Below, one piece after another: positions 2,135 to 23,498 of a stretch of 56,684 nucleotides of DNA. Numbering within the stretch: position 1 is the first letter of the stretch; each line of letters starts with the position of its first letter. A program made the translations under genes and the position numbers. The notes below the pieces were generated by a model that saw only the letters and a program-made list of their open reading frames with translations, ran no database searches and was not told the origin of the DNA. The stretch is from positions 171,403 through 228,086 of the forward strand of contig VXQX01000080.1 in NCBI GenBank assembly GCA_009838765.1, read 5' to 3'. Source of the DNA: Gemmatimonadales bacterium. GTDB lineage: Bacteria > Gemmatimonadota > Gemmatimonadetes > Palauibacterales > Palauibacteraceae.

Positions 2135-3097
2135 ATGATCGGGGCCGTGAATACACCGGCGATTCGCCTCCGTGGCGTCACAAAGCGCTTCGAAAAGAAG
2201 ACGGCGGTCCGCGATCTCGACCTCGAGATCCCGCATGGATCGATCTACGGGCTCATCGGCCCGAACGGCGCCGGAAAGACGACCACGCTCCGGATCATCC
2301 TCGACATCATCGGGCCCGACACCGGTTCCGTGGACGTTTTCGGCTCTCCCAACGTCGAGGCCATGCGCCAACGCGTAGGGTACCTCCCGGAGGAGCGCGG
2401 CCTGTACCAGAAGATGACGGCCGCGGAGCACCTCGCGTTCTTCGGCCAGCTGAAGGGTCTGAGGCGGAAGGAGGCGCTCGCGCGGGCCCGGGACGGGCTG
2501 GATGCGGTGGGTCTCGGCGACCGGGCGGACGACAAGGTGGAGACCTTCTCGAAGGGGATGGCCCAGAAGGCCCAGTTCCTCGGGGTCATCCTTCACCGGC
2601 CCGACCTGCTGGTGCTCGACGAGCCCTTCAGTGGCCTCGATCCGCTCAACGTCGAACTGTTCAAGCAGCTCCTGCAGGAACGCCAGCGGGCCGGAGCCAC
2701 GATCCTGCTCTCGACGCACCTCATCGAGGACGCCGAGCGCCTGTGCGAGCGCGTGTGCATGATCGCGGGAGCGACCAAGGTGCTCGATGGCCGCGTCCGC
2801 GACATCAAGGCCGCGGCGGGGCGGCGCGACATCGCGCTGTCCTTCGAGGGGAACCCCACGTTCCTTGACGCACCGGATCTCATCGAGGACATCTCGGCGC
2901 ACGGCACCTACGTGGAGGTCCGCATGCTTGAGGGGGCGGACCCCCAGGCGTTGCTGCGGCGGGCGGTGGACAGCGGCGCCCTGATCTCCCGTTTCGAACT
3001 GATCGAGCCTTCGCTGCGCCAGATCTTCATCGAGAAGGCGACTGAGGCCGGACTCTCGCATGAGGACGAGAGCGAAGATGACGAGGCGGCCGCATGA
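2135..3097 (+). CDS. ABC transporter ATP-binding protein (NatA-like)
   Basis: A 320-residue ATPase of an ABC-2 type exporter. Walker A is GPNGAGKT at about residues 42-49, the signature is the variant FSKGMAQK at 138-145 instead of LSGGQ, and Walker B is LLVLDEPF at about 158-165 with the D-loop SGLDP. LLSTHLIEDAERL is the H-loop. The C-terminal 90 residues match the DUF4162 extension found on NatA/YhaQ-type ATPases. A GTG at 2147 is an alternative start that would remove four residues. The gene ends in an ATGA overlap with the permease, so the two are made together. Substrate is unknown; NatAB relatives export sodium or other small solutes. Confidence 0.92.
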   Translation: MIGAVNTPAIRLRGVTKRFEKKTAVRDLDLEIPHGSIYGLIGPNGAGKTTTLRIILDIIGPDTGSVDVFGSPNVEAMRQRVGYLPEERGLYQKMTAAEHLAFFGQLKGLRRKEALARARDGLDAVGLGDRADDKVETFSKGMAQKAQFLGVILHRPDLLVLDEPFSGLDPLNVELFKQLLQERQRAGATILLSTHLIEDAERLCERVCMIAGATKVLDGRVRDIKAAAGRRDIALSFEGNPTFLDAPDLIEDISAHGTYVEVRMLEGADPQALLRRAVDSGALISRFELIEPSLRQIFIEKATEAGLSHEDESEDDEAAA

Positions 3098-4425
3098 ACC
3101 CGTTCACGCCCAGGGTCGCGGCCGTGATCCGCCGGGAATTCGTGCTGCGCGTGAAGTCCAAGTGGTTCCTCCTCTCCACGCTGGGCCTCCCCGTGCTGAT
3201 CGTCGGGCTCGGCGTCCTCTCCGCCTTCCTGGCAGTGCGAGGGGGGACGGATGTGGGCGAGGAGCGCAGGGTCGTCGGAGTCGCCGATCCCGCCGGGCTC
3301 ATCGGGGACCTCCTCGTCGAGGAGCTGCTCGCGGACTCGCTCGACGCCGTGCGGGCCGGGGGCATGGAGGAGTTCTCGGTTGACGAGGCGCGGACGCGGC
3401 TCTCGGACTCGTCCTACGACCTGCTGCTGATGATCCCGAGGAGCGCGGGCCGGCGCTCTGCGGAGATGCCGGGCGAGACACCGGACGCGGACGAAGGGGA
3501 GGGGGACGACGAGCGGACGACGCTGCTCGCGCGGGCCAGCGTTCCCTCCGTCATCGAGGGGTCGGTCCGGGGCGCCCTTCAGCGGGCATCGGTGCGGGCG
3601 CGCCTGCGCTCGATCGGCGTGCAGAGCGTCGATCCCGGCGCGCTGCTCCAGCGGACATCGTTCGACGTCATCAACGTCACGGAGTCCGGCGAAGCGCGGT
3701 CCCAGGACATCTACCGCGCGCTCAGCTTCGGCATCGCGTTCTTCTTCTACTTCATCCTGCTCATCTACGGGCAGATGATCGTGCGCGCGATCCTGGAGGA
3801 GAAGCAGTCCGACATCGTCGAGATCATGGTCTCCTCGCTGCGCCCATGGGAATTGATGCTGGGCAAGATCGTGGGCGTCGGGGCGGTGGGCATCGCGCAG
3901 ATGGCCGTGTGGGCCCTGGTCTTCGCGCTCGCGGCGGTCTACGGCCTCACGGCCGGGGCCTCCACGCTGGCGGAGGCGGGGATCGACCTCGCGAACATCC
4001 CGGTGCCGTGGGGCACGCTCGTGCTGATGTTCTTCTTCCTCATTTTCGGGTATCTGCTCTACGCGGGCATGTTCGCCGGCGCCGGCGCGACGATCAGCAA
4101 CGAGCACGACGCCCAGCAGGTCATGCTCCCCATCACGATGCTGATCATCCTCCCCTTCATCGCGACGCAGGGCGTGATCCAGAGCCCGAACGCCGGCTGG
4201 GGCATCATCCTGTCCCTCGTGCCGTTCTTCAGTCCGCTGGTGATGCCGGCGCGGCTGTTCGCGACCTCGGTCCCCGTGTGGCAGTGGCTCGCGTCGCTGG
4301 TTCTGCTGGGAGTCTTCGTCCTCGGGGCGGCGTGGGTCGCGGGCCGCATCTTCCGGGTCGGGATTCTGATGAAGGGCCAGCGCGCCAACCTGCCGCAGGT
4401 GCTGCGGTGGATACGCCACGGCTGA
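3094..4425 (+). CDS. ABC-2 type permease (NatB-like)
   Basis: A 443-residue inner-membrane partner of the preceding ATPase, coupled by an ATGA overlap. The layout is that of NatB/YhaP: one N-terminal membrane segment (WFLLSTLGLPVLIVGLGVLS), a large extracytoplasmic region of about 160 residues containing an acidic stretch, then five or six membrane segments starting near IAFFFYFILLIYGQMIVRA. The segment EEKQSDIVEIMVSSLRPWELMLGK is the conserved cytoplasmic coupling region of this family. The last codons overlap the start of tupA, so the tungstate genes may be read from the same transcript although they form a separate transporter. Confidence 0.9.
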   Translation: MNPFTPRVAAVIRREFVLRVKSKWFLLSTLGLPVLIVGLGVLSAFLAVRGGTDVGEERRVVGVADPAGLIGDLLVEELLADSLDAVRAGGMEEFSVDEARTRLSDSSYDLLLMIPRSAGRRSAEMPGETPDADEGEGDDERTTLLARASVPSVIEGSVRGALQRASVRARLRSIGVQSVDPGALLQRTSFDVINVTESGEARSQDIYRALSFGIAFFFYFILLIYGQMIVRAILEEKQSDIVEIMVSSLRPWELMLGKIVGVGAVGIAQMAVWALVFALAAVYGLTAGASTLAEAGIDLANIPVPWGTLVLMFFFLIFGYLLYAGMFAGAGATISNEHDAQQVMLPITMLIILPFIATQGVIQSPNAGWGIILSLVPFFSPLVMPARLFATSVPVWQWLASLVLLGVFVLGAAWVAGRIFRVGILMKGQRANLPQVLRWIRHG

Positions 4426-16330: not shown

Positions 16331-16868
16331 TCAGAAGACGCCGCAATCCGCGTTTGCGTCACTTTCGGGGATTCGACCGAGAAACGGAGGCTGCGCTAGG
16401 GTGCCCGGCTCTCTGTCCGCAGTTGGGGGCAGCGGGGTCCGAATCACCCACAGGCGATCGTCGGCGTCAACCGCCACTGCCTCGATTGCGGGGATGGCCT
16501 CGGCCAACGTCATCTCTTCGATGCGGGCCCTGAGAGCCTCCTGCAACCGGCTCGCGAAGTCGTCCGGCATACGGATGTCCGGGCACCCCGCGATGGAGAG
16601 TGTCGTCGGACTCCGATTCCTCTCCAATTCGGCCAGCGGCGCTCCCTCTCCGCATTCCGCACGGCGGCCGTCACCGGGGTCGGGGTGAGCGGCCGCTCCA
16701 GAACCTCAGCCACGGCACCGTCCTCGCCGATCAGCCTGATCCGGCATCCCGAGGAGTCGACGACGCGACCCGCCGGCGGGCATCCTGCCGCCGCCGTCAC
16801 CCCCGCACGCAGCGAGGAGGCAGAGGACGGCGCCGAACAAGCAGGGGCGCGAGGCGCAGGACCCGCTA
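16331..16868 (-). pseudogene. Decayed 6-bladed beta-propeller lipoprotein
   Basis: Three frames on the minus strand each hold a piece of one protein. The first is a lipoprotein signal (CLFGAVLCLLAACGG, within 16706-16868). The second reads VVDSSGCRIRLIGEDGAVAE then VLERPLTPTPVTAAVRNAER, ending near 16640. The third continues as ERNRSPTTLSIAGCPDI and AIEAVAVDADDRLWVIRTPL, stopping at 16331. This is the order of the last blades of the propeller proteins common in this group. The signal sits directly against the last part, so most blades are missing. At least two frame changes plus an internal deletion make it a pseudogene. Confidence is moderate because the family match is by eye. Confidence 0.6.
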
Positions 16869-16875
16869 TCCGACG

Positions 16876-17128
16876 CTAGGTCACATGGAACGTCACCCAT
16901 TGCGAGACCCAGACGGCAGTGGGCTCACCGCGGTTCCTCGCGGGGCGGAAGCGCATCTGCGACACGACCTCCCACCGTGATGAGGGCGTCCGCGTAGTCG
17001 CGCGCGGGTTCGACCTCCAGGTAGTGCTCGCCGAGGCGGAAGCGGGTCTCGCCGCCGAGGAGGCGCTCGACGACGATCTCGTCGCCGGGGCGATTCCAGC
17101 GGCCTCGCTCTCCGGGGTCTGACAGCAC
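16876..17128 (-). pseudogene. Decayed M56 peptidase/TonB gene with internal deletion
   Basis: One frame contains ARDYADALITVGGRV (about 16961-17005), which in the intact neighbours follows the M56 catalytic region. The overlapping frame contains EVVSQMRFRPARNRGEPTAV and VWVSQWVTFHVT, the end of the TonB C-terminal domain, stopping at 16876. In the intact gene at 19794-21107 these parts are separated by well over 100 residues. Here they meet at a short shared stretch around GGAGGTCGTG and are out of frame. The residues before the M56 piece (RPGDEIVVERLLGGETRFRL) do not match the intact M56 proteins and were not identified. Confidence 0.65.
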
Positions 17129-17323: not shown

Positions 17324-17352
17324 TTGACATCGCTGGCCCGCCCCCGTAGATG
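17324..17352 (+). promoter_or_regulatory. Sigma-70-like promoter of the Cys-rich peptide operon
   Basis: A perfect TTGACA (17324-17329) is followed after 17 bases by TAGATG (17347-17352). It lies 50 bases before the peptide ATG, in a stretch less GC-rich than its surroundings. A GGAG ribosome site at 17392-17395 follows with good spacing to ATG 17403. Confidence 0.55.
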
Positions 17353-17402
17353 GCGGCCGCTATTCGATTTGGCTTGTCCCCCCAATTCCATGGAGAATGC
17401 AG

Positions 17403-17633
17403 ATGAACAAGGTCGCATTCCGTTGGAATCGCCCGCTCCAGCTCTTGGGCCTGCTCCTGATCGCGGCGTTGTCGGTTGGCGCCGAAGCCGGGCGAGCTCA
17501 AGAAGTAGACGACGAATGCGATGAGTTTCTCGGTTGCGATTACTGTATCTCTCGTGATGGAGACGAGGTCTGCACCACCTGGATCTGCCCGGTCGGTGAC
17601 TCCAGGGGTGTTGGGATCTTCTGCATTAGATGA
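17403..17633 (+). CDS. Small exported six-cysteine peptide
   Basis: A 76-residue precursor. ATG 17403 is preferred over ATG 17397 because GGAG at 17392-17395 is seven bases away. The signal peptide is PLQLLGLLLIAALSVGAEAG with probable cleavage near GRAQ-E. The mature part is about 43 residues, acidic, and holds six cysteines in the order C-x5-C-x2-C-x7-C-x4-C, then one near the C-terminus (FCIR). Six cysteines in so small an exported domain suggest disulfide folding or metal binding. The stop overlaps the start of a thioredoxin-fold protein (ATGA at 17630-17633), a natural partner. No family was recognised, though the layout recalls the small NVEALA peptides found beside propeller proteins in Bacteroidota. 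Confidence 0.75.
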   Translation: MNKVAFRWNRPLQLLGLLLIAALSVGAEAGRAQEVDDECDEFLGCDYCISRDGDEVCTTWICPVGDSRGVGIFCIR

Positions 17634-19438
17634 CTGCTAGATCTCACAGTTCAGCGGATAAAGGGGATGGTCGGTGGAACCGGGTCGTCAACATCGCGAT
17701 CCTGGGAGTGCTCGCCATCCTGCTGTTCAATCCGTCGGGTGTGGTGGGAAGCTGGATCATCGCAGAGTACAAGGGATGGCAGGAGCAGCGGCGAATCGCC
17801 CTGAACTGGCCGGAGTTGACAAACGCGTCGAGTTATCTTGGTCCGTCGCCTCTACAGGATGGTGCTGTCATAGTGGAGTTCGTGGACTATGACTGTCCCG
17901 TTTGTAAGGCGGTGGCTCCCGCCGTCCTGGAGGGTGCTCGCGGCCGCGGCGTTACGGTGGTTATGCGCCACGTCCCCTCTGAACGGCGTGGTCCGGCTGC
18001 AACGGAAGCGGCTCTCGCAGCGATTTGCGCAGAGCAGTACGGTCTGTTCCCGGAGGCGCACGGCGCGCTGATCTCGGACGAGACGTGGCTGGAGACTCGA
18101 GATTGGGTGGGCTTCGCCGTCAACTTGGGAGTTGGCGACCCAGAGTCGTTCGGCAATTGTGTGAGCGAGGAAGAAGCCCCGCAGCGACGTCTCGCCCGCG
18201 ATGTGGAGTTGGCGGAAGTTCTGCGGATTCCCGGGACGCCGACCTTCGTTTCAGCCGAAGAGTTGCACTTGGGTGCGCCGGGACTGGCGTCGGCGTTGGC
18301 CGCAGCTGCCCTATTGCGGCCGCGCGCTCCGCGTCGTCCCTCGACCGACCCGGTCTTCGATTCGTCGGAGCACAGGGATCTCTCCGAGCGGCTGCTGTCC
18401 GTCAAGGGTGGCTTCTTCACGCCGGACGGCGGTCTCGTTGTGGTGGACCGCACCGAGATCCACATGATCGACATGGCGTCCGGGGAGCATCGAGTCGTGG
18501 GGCGCGAGGGAGGGGGGCCGGAGGAATTCGGCGTCATATGGCAGGCGGTTCGCACGTCGGAGGGTGTCACCGTTAGGGACTTCCTCAGGGGTCGTATCGT
18601 GTCGATTGGCCACGATGGCGATTTTGGCCACTCACAAAGCTACCTGGATGTTCCGCTCAACGGCTCTCAACCGCGGCTGGTAGCCCGTCATCCAGACGGC
18701 AGCACGGTCTTCCGCGACAGAGTCAGCGATGCGATCACGCGGAAATCCAAAGGTCGATACTGGCGGCAAGCCCGGTACGTGGCGGTGGATTCCGACGGCG
18801 GACTTCGGGTGGTCGCGGAGACACAAGGCAACGAACGGTACTCCGACACGAGACTCGACCGTCCCGTGTTGTTTGGGCACCGGACATTGGAGGCGGCGAC
18901 CTCAGACCGTCTCGTCGTCGCCGAAACTGACCAGGGATCCATCTCGGTACTCGACTGGAGCGGCGTGCCGGTCGCCAGTATTCCCATGCCGCCGGGCGTC
19001 AGGCTGTCCGCAGACCAGGTGCGGAGGGGGCGAGAGTCCGAGGCGTCGCAGCAGGAGGAGAGTAGGGGGCGGTTCATGGAGGCCGCGTTGGACGGCAGGT
19101 TCCCGTTCCCGCCGTCGTTCATCGAGGAGCGACTCCTCCCCACTCGGCCGCCTGACTGGCCGGCAAACGAAGTGGCGCCCCCGATCGATGCGATGCTGAC
19201 GGACTTCGATTCGAGACTCTGGGTGAGAGATTATCGGCTTCCCGGCCAGGATAGCGTAACGTGGCGAGTGTGGGACATCGACCGGGAGCAGCTGCTGTTC
19301 ACGGTGAGCATGGATGGTGAGGATCGGTTGCTCGACGCGCGAGGCGACGAAGTGCTGCTGCGCCGATTGGATCCATTCGACGCTCACCAGGTCGTGGTTA
19401 CTCCGCTTCTCCCCGAGCAGGCCAAAGGGGGGACTTAG
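17630..19438 (+). CDS. Membrane-anchored DsbA-like thioredoxin fused to 6-bladed beta-propeller
   Basis: A 602-residue protein. An N-terminal signal anchor (about residues 18-40, VVNIAILGVLAILLF) should place the rest outside the cytoplasm. Residues 70-225 form a DsbA/Thioredoxin_4-like domain: VEFVDYDCPVCKAVAP with the CPVC pair at 89-92, the cis-proline loop PGTPTFV at 201-207, and two further cysteines near 133 and 177. From about residue 240 to the end is a beta-propeller of the 6-bladed family, with the hallmark GGGPEEF at 294-300 and strand repeats such as GLVVVDRTEIHMIDMASGEH. ATGA coupling to the six-cysteine peptide suggests that it oxidises, isomerises or carries that peptide. Base composition is less GC-rich than in neighbours. 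Confidence 0.88.
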   Translation: MTARSHSSADKGDGRWNRVVNIAILGVLAILLFNPSGVVGSWIIAEYKGWQEQRRIALNWPELTNASSYLGPSPLQDGAVIVEFVDYDCPVCKAVAPAVLEGARGRGVTVVMRHVPSERRGPAATEAALAAICAEQYGLFPEAHGALISDETWLETRDWVGFAVNLGVGDPESFGNCVSEEEAPQRRLARDVELAEVLRIPGTPTFVSAEELHLGAPGLASALAAAALLRPRAPRRPSTDPVFDSSEHRDLSERLLSVKGGFFTPDGGLVVVDRTEIHMIDMASGEHRVVGREGGGPEEFGVIWQAVRTSEGVTVRDFLRGRIVSIGHDGDFGHSQSYLDVPLNGSQPRLVARHPDGSTVFRDRVSDAITRKSKGRYWRQARYVAVDSDGGLRVVAETQGNERYSDTRLDRPVLFGHRTLEAATSDRLVVAETDQGSISVLDWSGVPVASIPMPPGVRLSADQVRRGRESEASQQEESRGRFMEAALDGRFPFPPSFIEERLLPTRPPDWPANEVAPPIDAMLTDFDSRLWVRDYRLPGQDSVTWRVWDIDREQLLFTVSMDGEDRLLDARGDEVLLRRLDPFDAHQVVVTPLLPEQAKGGT

Positions 19439-19793: not shown

Positions 19794-21107
19794 CTAGATC
19801 ACCTGGAAGGTCACCCACTGGGAGACCCAGACGGGGGTCGGTTCACCCTGGTTCCTCGCGGGACGGAACCGCATCTGCCGGGCGACTTCCATGGCGGCGC
19901 GATCCAGCGCGTCGTTGCCGCTGCCCGTCTTGATCTCCTGGTTGACCACGGCGCCGGAAAGGTCGACGTACAGCCACATCTCGACCCGGCCACCGATACC
20001 CGCGTTCTTCAGGTTTAGCGGATAGGCGCTCTCAAGTACCTGCCGGACCTCGTCCACGTTCTGGAGAACCGGGGGTGTGTCGAACGCGATGGAGGTCGGC
20101 TGGTCCGCCTGCGCGGCTCTCTCGACCAGGCGGACCAGCGGGTTCTCCTCGATCTCGGCCGCGGGCGCGGGAGCGTCCATCGGCGCCTCGGGTTGCGGGG
20201 TGCCCAGAACGAGGATGATGGCGAGCGCCGCCACGCCCGACGCTCCCAGGGTTCTCGGAATGCGGAGGCGGGCCAGCGGCTCGGTCATGCGGCGCAGTCG
20301 CCGCTCCACGGCCGGCCTGCGTTCCGCGAAGGCGGCCGCGGCCAGCAGGGGCGCGGAGACACGGCCACCCACCGTGATGAGAGCGTCCGCGTAGTCGCGC
20401 GGGGACTCGCCCCGCTCCAGCACGCGGCGGTCGCAGTCGAACTCGATCGCCAACCGCAGCCGGGAGAGCTGCCACCACAGGAAGAGGTTCCACGGCATCA
20501 GCACGAGGGCCGCGACCGCGACGGCGAAGAGACGGTGGTCGCCGGCGCGCTGGTGTTCGCGCTCGTGCAGAAAGACCAGGCGCAACAGCCTGTCCTCGAG
20601 TTCAGGGATCCACCTCGGCATCACGACGACGGGGTGCCGGATGCCGACCACGGCCGGGCCCCGGTCGTCCGCGATCAGGACCGGCGATCCGAGGACGCGA
20701 CCCGGCGTCCACGTGCGCATCTCCGATTGCAGGCGCCGGTACGCCCACCCGAGGTGGAGGAGCATCCCCGCGACGAGCAGTGCCCAGACCCCACCCGCCA
20801 GCGCACCCAGCGTGCCGGCGTCGGACCACACGATGGATCCCGCCGCCTCGGGCGCGGCGGGCGCGGAGCTCACTACCACCGCCTCACTCAACCTCACGAG
20901 AGGAGCCCACGGCGCCCCACCGAGGCCCGGGAGGAGTCCGGGGGCGAGAAACGCCGCGAACGGGAGCGCCACCGAGCCGACGATCGCGGCGAACCAGCCC
21001 CAGCGCACCGGCTTCCGGAAGTGGCCCAGCGCCCGCTCGCTCGCGAAGGCGGCCAGGGCGAGGAGTCCCGCAATCGACAGGCAGTATCCGATCCAGACGA
21101 TGACCAT
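19794..21107 (-). CDS. BlaR1-like M56 membrane peptidase with TonB C-terminal domain
   Basis: A 437-residue protein. ATG 21107 is used because AAGGAG lies seven bases upstream, inside the end of the preceding gene; the frame extends eleven codons further but into that gene. The N-terminal half has four membrane segments and the zinc site HEREHQRAGD (HExxH at 181-185) of M56 peptidases, with EFDCDRRVLERGESPRDYADAL after it. After another membrane segment (SGVAALAIILVLG) come about 90 residues of TonB C-terminal domain (YPLNLKNAGIGGRVEMWLYV, MRFRPARNQGEPTPVWVSQW). In classical systems M56 proteins cleave a BlaI-type repressor on sensing a signal; here the sensor is replaced by a TonB domain that may contact a peptidoglycan or receptor partner. 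Third gene of the blaI operon. Confidence 0.87.
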   Translation of the reverse strand: MVIVWIGYCLSIAGLLALAAFASERALGHFRKPVRWGWFAAIVGSVALPFAAFLAPGLLPGLGGAPWAPLVRLSEAVVVSSAPAAPEAAGSIVWSDAGTLGALAGGVWALLVAGMLLHLGWAYRRLQSEMRTWTPGRVLGSPVLIADDRGPAVVGIRHPVVVMPRWIPELEDRLLRLVFLHEREHQRAGDHRLFAVAVAALVLMPWNLFLWWQLSRLRLAIEFDCDRRVLERGESPRDYADALITVGGRVSAPLLAAAAFAERRPAVERRLRRMTEPLARLRIPRTLGASGVAALAIILVLGTPQPEAPMDAPAPAAEIEENPLVRLVERAAQADQPTSIAFDTPPVLQNVDEVRQVLESAYPLNLKNAGIGGRVEMWLYVDLSGAVVNQEIKTGSGNDALDRAAMEVARQMRFRPARNQGEPTPVWVSQWVTFQVI

Positions 21108-21111
21108 GTCC

Positions 21112-23025
21112 CTACTCCTTCGACCCGCTGTCCTTCGCACCCGCCTTCGTCGTGATTTGGATCACTCCGTGTCGGGCCTTCTCTCCATACGCGTCCGTGG
21201 CGCTCTCGCCTCGCACGATCGTGACATGATCGACGTCCAGTCGGCCGAGTTCCGACAGCCCCTCGGCGTCGAGAATCACGCCATCGATGACGATCAGCGG
21301 ATCGGGTATGTCCTCCAGACGGGGCACAATCCGGGCTTCCGGCGCGCCATCCCGGTCGACATCGTCGAGGACCCCCGTGCGGAGGATGTCTTCGATCTGG
21401 AGGCCACCCTCGCTCGCCGGCGGCGTTCGGGAAGCCGCTCCTTCCGGGGAGGCGCGGTCCGCGGCGCCGTCCCTGGTCGTGATTTCGACCGCTCCGTTCC
21501 GGGCCCGCCCGCCGTACAGCTCGATCGCCGCCGCTCCCTTGACGACCTCGACGTGGTCGATATCGAGAGACTGGAGGTCTTCCAGGCTGCTGCCCTCGGC
21601 TTGGATGACGCCGTCGACGATGATGAGCGGAGCGTCCTCATCGGCTACGGAAACTCCGCGGGCGGGGGCCTCGTCCGCCTCGTCCGCGTCGTCCGACATC
21701 TGGAAGGTGATCCACTGGGAGACCCAGACGTCGGTCGCCTGGTCGCGGTTCATCGCGGGCTCGAAGCGCATGGCGCCGCCGACGTCGGCGGCGGCGCGGT
21801 CCAGCGCGTCGCTGCCGCTGCTCGTCTTCACCTCCCGGTTCTGCACGACGCCGGACTCGTCGATGTACAGCCAGATTTCGACTCGGCCGCCGATTCCCGC
21901 TTCCTTCAGGTTCGTCGGGTAGGCCTGCTTCAGCGCATCCGATACTTCCCCGGCGTTCTGAAGGATCGGCGGCCGGTCGTACACGATGAAGGTCGGCCGG
22001 TCGCCGCGCCCCACGGCCTCCGCGCCGGGCATCGGCGGGGGCACCCAATCGCTGGTTTCGGACGGCGTGGTCACGGTCACGGCGGGCGGTTCCGGCGCGT
22101 TCATGCCGCTCTCGGGCCCTGGGCAGCCGAGGACGAAGAGGACGGCTACCATGGCCAGCCCCGAGCTGCCGAGCGTGCGGAACAGGCGCATGTTGGCGGG
22201 CGGCTCGGTCATGCGGCGCAGGCGCCGTTCCACGGCCGGCTTGCGTTCGGCGAAGGCGGCTGCTGCGAGCAGCGATCCGGAGACGCGGCTCCCGACGGTG
22301 ATGAGGGCATCCGCGTAGTCGCGCCGTGATTCGCCGCGCCCGAGCACGCGATGGTCGCAATCGAACTCGATCGCGAGCCGAAGGCGGGATACCTGCCACC
22401 ACACGACCGGGTTCCACGGCATCAGGACGAGCGCGGTGACCGCCGCCGCGAAGAGCCGATGGTCGCCGGCGCGCTGATGCTCCCGCTCGTGGAGGAAGAC
22501 GAGGCGGAGCAGCCGGTCGTCGAGTTCGGGGATCCACTTCGGCATGACGACGACCGAGCGCCGGATCCCGACGACGGCCGGCCCCCGCTCTTCGGAGATC
22601 ATGACCGGCGATCCCGCCACGCGGCCCGGCCGCCACGTCCGCATCTCCGACCGCAGCCGGCCGTAGATCCGCCCGAGATAGCCGATCATGGCGGCGGCCA
22701 GAGCCAGCCATCCCCACCCCAGCACCGCGCCCACCGCCGCCGCATCGAAAGCTCCACCGGCCGCCACGGGCGACGCCGGCGCTGCGGTTGCGACCGCCAG
22801 ACCGCTCAACCCGACCGCCGGCGCGGCCGGCGACGCGCCGAAGCCGGGAAGGAGTCCGGGCGCGAAGAAGGCGACCACGGGCACCGTCACGGATCCGGCG
22901 ATCGCCGCGAACCACGCCCAGCGCACGGGCTTGCGGAAGTGGCCGAGGGCCCGCTCCGACGCGAAGGCCGCCCCGGCGAGGAGTCCCGAAATCAACAGGC
23001 AGTATCCGATCCACTCGATGACCAT
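21112..23025 (-). CDS. M56 peptidase-TonB fusion with two plug-like repeats
   Basis: A 637-residue relative of the following gene. Residues 1-320 hold the membrane segments and zinc motif HEREHQRAGD (HExxH at 179-183). A TonB C-terminal domain follows (YPTNLKEAGIGGRVEIWLYI, VWVSQWITFQM). Two plug-like repeats are added: PLIIVDGVIQAEGSSLEDLQ with VEVVKGAAAIELYGGRARNG, and PLIVIDGVILDAEGLSELGR with VTIVRGESATDAYGEKARHG, each ending in an ITT motif. Such repeats are the segment of TonB-dependent receptors that precedes the barrel. The protein therefore joins a peptidase, a TonB tail and receptor-plug pieces. The ATG is five bases from the BlaI stop, with AAGGAG supplied by the last BlaI codons. 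Repressor cleavage is inferred from the BlaR1 family. Confidence 0.87.
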   Translation of the reverse strand: MVIEWIGYCLLISGLLAGAAFASERALGHFRKPVRWAWFAAIAGSVTVPVVAFFAPGLLPGFGASPAAPAVGLSGLAVATAAPASPVAAGGAFDAAAVGAVLGWGWLALAAAMIGYLGRIYGRLRSEMRTWRPGRVAGSPVMISEERGPAVVGIRRSVVVMPKWIPELDDRLLRLVFLHEREHQRAGDHRLFAAAVTALVLMPWNPVVWWQVSRLRLAIEFDCDHRVLGRGESRRDYADALITVGSRVSGSLLAAAAFAERKPAVERRLRRMTEPPANMRLFRTLGSSGLAMVAVLFVLGCPGPESGMNAPEPPAVTVTTPSETSDWVPPPMPGAEAVGRGDRPTFIVYDRPPILQNAGEVSDALKQAYPTNLKEAGIGGRVEIWLYIDESGVVQNREVKTSSGSDALDRAAADVGGAMRFEPAMNRDQATDVWVSQWITFQMSDDADEADEAPARGVSVADEDAPLIIVDGVIQAEGSSLEDLQSLDIDHVEVVKGAAAIELYGGRARNGAVEITTRDGAADRASPEGAASRTPPASEGGLQIEDILRTGVLDDVDRDGAPEARIVPRLEDIPDPLIVIDGVILDAEGLSELGRLDVDHVTIVRGESATDAYGEKARHGVIQITTKAGAKDSGSKE

Positions 23026-23029
23026 GTCC

Positions 23030-23401
23030 CTACTCCTTCGAGCTGAGGCGTTCGTCCACGAGACCGCGCAGGTTCTCGAGGTCCTCCTTCGAGAGCGCCC
23101 GGTCCGAGACGAGGTGCGTTAGCAGCAGTTCGGGCGACCCCTGGAACATCTTCTGAACCAGCCGGCGCACGGCGCTCGCGCCAGCGCAGTCGCGCCCGAC
23201 GAGCGTGTGATAGCGGTAGGCTTTCCCCTCCTGGGTGTGCCCCACGTACCCCTTCTCCTCCAGCGTCCGGAGGATCGTGAGCACGGTGGTGTAGGCCAAC
23301 GCGTCACCGAGGCGTTCCTGGACCTCCGCGACGGTGGAGGCCCCTCTCTCCCACAGCACCGCCATGAGGTCGAGTTCCCGCGTCGTGAACTTGATCTCCA
23401 C
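23030..23401 (-). CDS. blaI: BlaI/MecI/CopY family transcriptional repressor
   Basis: A 123-residue winged-helix repressor. GTG 23401 is preferred over the TTG at 23425 because an AAGGA site lies eight bases upstream and VEIKFTTRELDLMAVLWERG is the usual BlaI N-terminus. The DNA-binding domain includes STVAEVQERL and YTTVLTILRTLEEKGYVGHT, the recognition helix and wing of this family; the C-terminal part (LTHLVSDRALSKEDLENLRG) is the dimerisation region with the site that M56 partners cut in classical systems. It is the first gene of a blaI-M56-M56 operon. A matching dyad operator overlaps its own promoter, so it should repress itself. The target beyond this operon is unknown. Confidence 0.93.
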   Translation of the reverse strand: MEIKFTTRELDLMAVLWERGASTVAEVQERLGDALAYTTVLTILRTLEEKGYVGHTQEGKAYRYHTLVGRDCAGASAVRRLVQKMFQGSPELLLTHLVSDRALSKEDLENLRGLVDERLSSKE

Positions 23402-23498
23402 GAGTCTCGTCCTTTCCCTCCCCAACCATCAGCGTCGCCTGCCCCGGCCGGCCGCCATCGAGACGCCGGCGGACCGGGCGGGGCGTCGTTCCCGATTC

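Follow-up and report, generated by a model that had tools for sequence, protein, structure and literature searches.

What does a gene for a small exported peptide with six Cys do in front of, and overlapping, a gene for a membrane-anchored protein in which a DsbA domain is fused to a beta-propeller? The pair lies in a 56,684-nucleotide stretch of DNA from a Gemmatimonadales bacterium (the window), and a sequence-only reading of this stretch had proposed that the fusion is a dedicated folding, maturation or sensing partner of the peptide, perhaps for a secreted signal or toxin. The features of the locus are as follows.

17324..17352, + strand: putative sigma70-like promoter (TTGACA, 17-bp spacer, weak TAGATG), from sequence; partly kept in L036
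17392..17396, + strand: Shine-Dalgarno GGAGA, 6 nt before the ATG, from sequence; conserved in L036
17403..17633, + strand: six-Cys exported peptide precursor, 76 aa (P0001), from sequence, locus comparison and pattern scan
17403..17501, + strand: signal peptide, residues 1-33; dN/dS 0.35 against L036, cleavage site by inspection
17502..17630, + strand: mature peptide; dN/dS 1.18, all Cys kept, predicted four-stranded beta fold
17630..19438, + strand: membrane-anchored DsbA / six-bladed propeller fusion, 602 aa (P0002), from Pfam, AlphaFold2 and Foldseek
17669..17728, + strand: transmembrane anchor at the N-terminus, residues 14-33, that leads into a conserved NPSGVVG motif, from alignment and AlphaFold2
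17741..18310, + strand: DsbA-like thioredoxin domain with leading helix, residues about 38-227, from Pfam, AlphaFold2 and Foldseek; dN/dS 0.31
17894..17905, + strand: CPVC active site (C89, C92); both Cys invariant in 14 fusions
18236..18241, + strand: Thr-cisPro loop (T203-P204); invariant in 14 fusions
18323..19417, + strand: six-bladed beta-propeller, residues 232-596, from AlphaFold2 and Foldseek; no Cys

The precursor has K/R at its N-terminus, then a LLGLLLIAALSVG core and a cleavage-like site that we placed by inspection between ARAQ and E; its sequence is MNKVAFRWNRPLQLLGLLLIAALSVGAEAGRAQ up to this site and EVDDECDEFLGCDYCISRDGDEVCTTWICPVGDSRGVGIFCIR after it. The signal is of the Sec type. 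All six Cys fall within the last 43 residues of the 76-residue precursor, as had been read from the letters, and in the mature peptide they are spaced C-x5-C-x2-C-x8-C-x4-C-x11-C. AlphaFold2 predicts a four-stranded beta fold for the mature peptide (pLDDT about 90), which had no significant match in the PDB (best E 0.74) and for which no known fold can be named. When we searched 14 such peptides against Pfam and NCBIfam, there was no significant family match, NVEALA included. Across the DsbA loci described below, most peptides have exactly six Cys and a few have 4, 8 or 9. We rejected a cytochrome-like peptide, since CxxCH occurs in only 1 of the 14.

Upstream of the peptide gene, a perfect TTGACA (17324-17329) stands 17 bp before a weak TAGATG. 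A consensus promoter scan reported no promoter upstream of the peptide gene; L036, a relative in which the remaining intergenic DNA has diverged, retains the –35 element, its flank CTCAGCTTGACATCG and the 17-bp spacing. A promoter at this position is therefore plausible, and the earlier description of it as clear was too strong. The gap upstream of the cassette contains gene wreckage: decayed pieces of a propeller lipoprotein in two frames, with a lipobox-like LLAACGGDGGG start (16331-16900, – strand), and a fragment resembling the neighbouring M56/TonB_C gene (16925-17128, – strand). On the other side of the cassette, two BlaR1-type M56 peptidases are fused to TonB C-terminal domains (19794-23425, – strand); one of them also matches a Plug domain, and a BlaI-type repressor precedes the two.

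The stop of the peptide gene overlaps the start of the fusion gene in an ATGA. In the AlphaFold2 model of the fusion protein (mean pLDDT 84.8), the transmembrane helix, the thioredoxin fold and the propeller are resolved as domains. Two Pfam profiles match above cut-off (Thioredoxin_4, 3.9e-8; DSBA, 3.6e-6), and the CxxC, the cis-Pro loop and the thioredoxin fold are all present, so the anchored protein with CPVC domain, cis-Pro loop and 6-bladed propeller described from sequence is borne out. The propeller carries a GGGPEEF motif and a helical insert (461-502). Foldseek matched P0002 to NHL six-bladed propellers and to ScsC, alpha-DsbA2 and C. diphtheriae DsbA, and HMMER, like Foldseek, places this type of DsbA near ScsC. 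Together with a CxxC pair that occurs in the peptides, the likeness to ScsC raises the possibility that the peptide is a Cu or Zn carrier kept reduced by an ScsC-like domain. We consider this very unlikely: an oxidising VKOR is present once in each of 10 genomes checked, we saw no ScsB/DsbD or copper gene beside the window locus, and the peptide comparison revealed no conserved His or Met ligands.

We then asked whether the peptide belongs with the DsbA domain, with the propeller or with neither. Loci were picked for their similarity to the fusion protein and independently of the peptide, and counts were tallied by hand. The anchored DsbA clade, fused or separate, is present at 42 loci, two of which are cut by contig ends (L052 and L053). 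In all 40 assessable loci, a Cys-rich exported peptide adjoins the DsbA gene, intact in 36 and as wreckage in 4. In 21 related propellers without DsbA (L125-L140, L037-L040 and L045, with little upstream sequence in L130 and L038), the six-Cys peptide was found at none (0/21 versus 40/40, Fisher p about 1e-12). At one DsbA locus (L117) the peptide lies about 2.1 kb downstream, and at three others (L106, L123 and L144) a single DsbA is accompanied by two or three tandem, diverged Cys peptides.

Among the 15 DsbA-propeller fusion genes (window, L036, L041-L043 and L105-L114), 11 have an intact peptide with six or more Cys adjoining (window, L036, L041, L106, L107 and L109-L114). The other four (L042, L043, L105 and L108) might be taken for counter-examples; we rejected them as such, as decayed peptide genes are present directly upstream. 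The remnant reads ...TCQICEVANADCWVLLCNGGPILTNCVF in L042 and L043 and ...CTECYLGGGCYAWICPIGHPEGTGIQCP in L108, and in L105 a deletion has joined the peptide start to the last three Cys. Fusions with neither a Cys-rich peptide nor its remnant next door, which would have spoken against the proposed pairing, were thus not found. Natural deletions of both kinds agree with a peptide that belongs to DsbA. In one split operon (G026, L046), the propeller is lost and the peptide and DsbA genes are kept 25 nt apart. In L126, L128, L129 and L138, fusion-like genes have lost the DsbA domain; a membrane stub and the propeller are left, and the six-Cys peptide is absent. The peptide follows DsbA, not the propeller.

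To see how often such a peptide turns up in background sequence, we scanned 710 kb of fetched loci in six frames for a hydrophobic leader, the pattern C-x-C-xx-C-x-C-x-C-x-C and a stop. There were 21 occurrences: 17 adjoined a DsbA gene, 4 lay a little farther away within those loci, and 0 were found elsewhere. A profile built from the 14 peptides matched only at such DsbA loci (16 genomes). This background scan and the conservation of the Cys led us to reject a chance ORF.

In L138, a nine-Cys ORF with a signal peptide (CCRESESRAPYCCEQCCWEQDNCNDC, 2791-3393) lies 1.3 kb upstream of propellers without DsbA. In L062-L072, the DsbA has 100-190 extra N-terminal residues and the peptide is absent; our guess is that these are VKOR-DsbA proteins.

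To find fusions, we searched 395 Gemmatimonadota genomes with a profile and also scanned named genomes; they turned up in the genus of the window and in a different family of this phylum. Outside Gemmatimonadota, the named-genome scan gave no full fusion except on short contigs in gammaproteobacterial bins; these contigs (L156, L167 and L168) carry Gemmatimonadota-type genes of this kind and are probably misbinned. Within the genus the fusion is patchy (5/17 genomes). A split operon, in which the six-Cys peptide, a propeller lipoprotein and DsbA are separate genes, is present in 13/17 and is nearly core; it also occurs in the window's own genome (L054), a 3.6-Mb assembly that is 95% complete. 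The split-operon peptide is 82 aa long and of the CxxxC...CxxxC type, and the propeller and DsbA genes overlap by 4 nt. Because the same functions exist as separate genes, the fusion is one state of a wider three-part system, which extends beyond the window's family. The coupling of peptide and partner seen in the window stands, but the fusion is not its sole form.

We next compared evolutionary rates between the window and its direct counterpart, L036. We found that dN/dS is 0.35 in the signal, 1.18 in the mature peptide (1.36 excluding Cys), 0.31 in DsbA and 0.86 in the propeller, the last to be read with care because propellers recombine with those of other genes. The mature peptide differs in rate from DsbA (Fisher p 0.004, with the peptide rate taken from 41 codons), and DNA identity is about 75% in the mature part as compared to 93% in the signal and 87-96% in the DsbA part. 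All six Cys are kept. In the window-type mature peptide, the Cys are fixed and the other positions appear near-neutral to diversifying. The L113/L114 pair shows the same order of dN/dS, as do the split operons in a milder form (signal 0.21, mature 0.45, propeller 0.36, DsbA 0.31). Because the mature dN/dS in the split operons of 11 genomes is 0.45, the split-operon peptide is a real gene under purifying selection, and all six of its Cys are kept. The earlier concern that the peptide frame might show no purifying selection across relatives is thereby answered, and the Cys conservation that was to be checked by alignment holds both between the window and L036 and across these 11 genomes.

The propellers also recombine. 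The window propeller shares 93.9% identity with the one in a chimeric G026 gene and 89.3% with that of its direct counterpart, L036, with mosaic blocks. In five genus genomes this propeller, at up to 94% DNA identity, is attached to an unrelated N-terminal part of about 630 aa, which has a weak YncE-like propeller match and a second domain:

L037, 2981-5968: propeller with unrelated N-terminal part
L038, 2-1669: propeller with unrelated N-terminal part
L039, 138-3011: propeller with unrelated N-terminal part
L040, 2573-5578: propeller with unrelated N-terminal part
L044, 15-1955: propeller with unrelated N-terminal part

This mosaic exchange between the fusion and the gene type with the 630-aa head amounts to propeller cassette shuffling. 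When we compared similarities across 10 fusion loci, peptide similarity, once corrected for DsbA, went with propeller similarity (partial Mantel r 0.61, p 0.001); there was no signal for DsbA after correction for the propeller. The signal falls to r 0.36 (p 0.03) with the Cys masked, and n is small; the result is suggestive of contact between peptide and propeller.

What, then, is the substrate of the DsbA domain? The propellers of all 15 fusions have 0 Cys, and in the genus split operons the propeller domain also lacks Cys, the Cys of the lipoprotein being that of its lipobox. Because the propeller has no Cys, the peptide is the sole candidate DsbA substrate in the cassette, and the case for it is strong. 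We infer with good support, from these comparisons, that DsbA oxidises the exported peptide; that the propeller binds the peptide is the more weakly supported step. VKOR is able to re-oxidise DsbA. Folding and maturation, as first proposed for the fusion, thus gain from the Cys-free propeller, and the sensing and toxin parts of that proposal stay conjectural.

Arylsulfate sulfotransferase has a six-bladed fold. A dedicated DsbA is encoded in an operon with this enzyme (dsbA2-dsbB-astA; PMC4460558), and the adjacency or fusion of DsbA and propeller here, with the precedent in E. coli and Campylobacter (PMC4460558), could mean that DsbA serves the propeller itself, as DsbL serves the sulfotransferase, and that the peptide is incidental. 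This is scarcely credible, as the peptide is present or decayed at every DsbA locus, and the missing Cys led us to reject it for the fusions. Unlike in the DsbL/DsbI-AssT systems, the propeller has no Cys pair and the likely substrate is a separate peptide, no DsbB/DsbI gene lies beside the cassette, and we found no arylsulfotransferase-family Pfam match in the fusion proteins.

Taken together, these data make it fairly likely that the locus is a cassette devoted to the oxidative folding of a secreted, diversifying disulfide peptide, in which the propeller serves as a cognate binding module (receptor or immunity). The precursor would be exported by Sec and its signal removed, so that the 43-residue mature peptide would reach the periplasm with its six Cys still reduced. 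Its co-translated partner would be held in the inner membrane by its single helix, its CPVC DsbA domain would form the three disulfides of the peptide, and the cell's VKOR would re-oxidise that domain. The Cys-free propeller on the same anchor may bind the folding or folded peptide and so give specificity, as a cognate receptor, presenter or immunity module. The role of the peptide beyond the cytoplasm could then be that of a diversifying signal, or of an antagonist, among related strains. We saw no exporter across the outer membrane and no obvious target nearby, so release from the cell is putative. Propellers of this kind that stand without DsbA or peptide are frequent in these genomes, which means that the propeller has, or can acquire, other functions.

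The closest known systems in working are bacteriocin operons with a dedicated thiol-disulfide oxidoreductase, such as sublancin BdbA, thermophilin BlpGst and pediocin PedC (PMC4919988). The common feature is a small exported Cys peptide co-encoded with a thioredoxin-fold oxidoreductase, as at all 40 loci here (4 of them decayed). The cassette differs from these operons in that the peptide has a Sec-type signal and six Cys, the host is Gram-negative, and the oxidoreductase sits on a membrane anchor and is either fused to a propeller or coupled to one.

With this precedent (PMC4919988), one form of the folding-cassette explanation is interbacterial antagonism, in which the peptide is a bacteriocin-like toxin folded by DsbA and the propeller confers immunity. 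The mature part diversifies while the Cys stay fixed, diverse tandem peptides share one DsbA, and the four fusions with decayed peptides have kept DsbA-propeller in the manner of orphan immunity. We hold this form only tentatively, as the signal is Sec-type with no double-glycine leader, no ABC exporter was found among the window neighbours scanned, there is no match to a bacteriocin or immunity family, and the peptide of the split operon is close to core and subject to purifying selection. That near-core distribution instead favours the other form, cell-cell signalling or kin recognition, in which the anchored propeller would sense the peptide as a pheromone or surface ligand; a recombining, fast-evolving propeller with many paralogs also fits. 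A signalling domain or regulator is neither fused to it nor conserved beside it, and only a short cytoplasmic tail precedes the membrane anchor, which leaves signalling somewhat unlikely. Three features, namely the patchy fusion, the tandem variant peptides and the loci that keep DsbA-propeller once the peptide is lost, speak for antagonism or recognition more than for housekeeping. We rejected a defence system, there being no PADLOC match.

In the maturation of methylamine dehydrogenase, MauD/E act with a Cys-rich light chain and a propeller heavy chain. These are the same three kinds of parts (a small disulfide-rich chain, a propeller and a thioredoxin-fold maturase), and the peptide might by analogy serve a propeller enzyme as a structural or redox subunit. 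This is improbable: the peptides are strongly variable even between close relatives, with little shared beyond the Cys, the propeller is six- and not seven-bladed, and there was no cofactor-enzyme family match, with no light- or heavy-chain Pfam match in the peptides or fusions.

In Bacteroidota, NVEALA peptides adjoin PF17170/DUF5128 six-bladed propellers. The systems are alike in having small exported peptides beside propellers. The propeller here may be close to PF17170: 2/14 fusion proteins match that profile (best 3.7e-11; P0002 itself does not), and the Foldseek matches of the fusion include the exported propeller BF0058 of Bacteroides. Unlike in NVEALA systems, DsbA is a constant partner, and we rejected NVEALA membership as none of the 14 peptides matches the profile.

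Palauibacterales are a marine group with some sponge-associated members, and the genome paper on them does not mention propeller, DsbA, cysteine or bacteriocin (PMC10469786). We found nothing in the literature that ties NVEALA, DUF5128 or a six-bladed propeller to Gemmatimonadota and no publication that describes the system, in a search that covered few subscription journals. In marine, partly sponge-associated Gemmatimonadota, the cassette has the appearance of a system for signalling or antagonism by peptides that has not been described before. It may, with some reserve on our part, represent a widespread undescribed family of diversifying, exported disulfide peptides of this phylum, each made with its own membrane-bound oxidase in one chain with a propeller that would be its cognate receptor or immunity module; the use would be antagonism or recognition at the level of strains, and marine and sponge microbiomes the probable setting. 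These loci add genetically encoded disulfide peptides, each tied to its own folding enzyme, that Pfam, NCBIfam and PADLOC do not see, in a phylum of which most members are uncultured. That the mature region diversifies points to marine bacteria contending with, or recognising, one another, and an oxidase fused to a recognition domain, if that is what it is, would be a ready-made laboratory tool for disulfide peptides.

At two other loci (L057, 3849-6561; L073, 3908-6451), a different DsbA and propeller pair has Cys-rich peptides on both flanks. These peptides have Tyr-rich tails and Cys arranged as CxxxCxxxC...CC, and form a further class that shares these kinds of partner.
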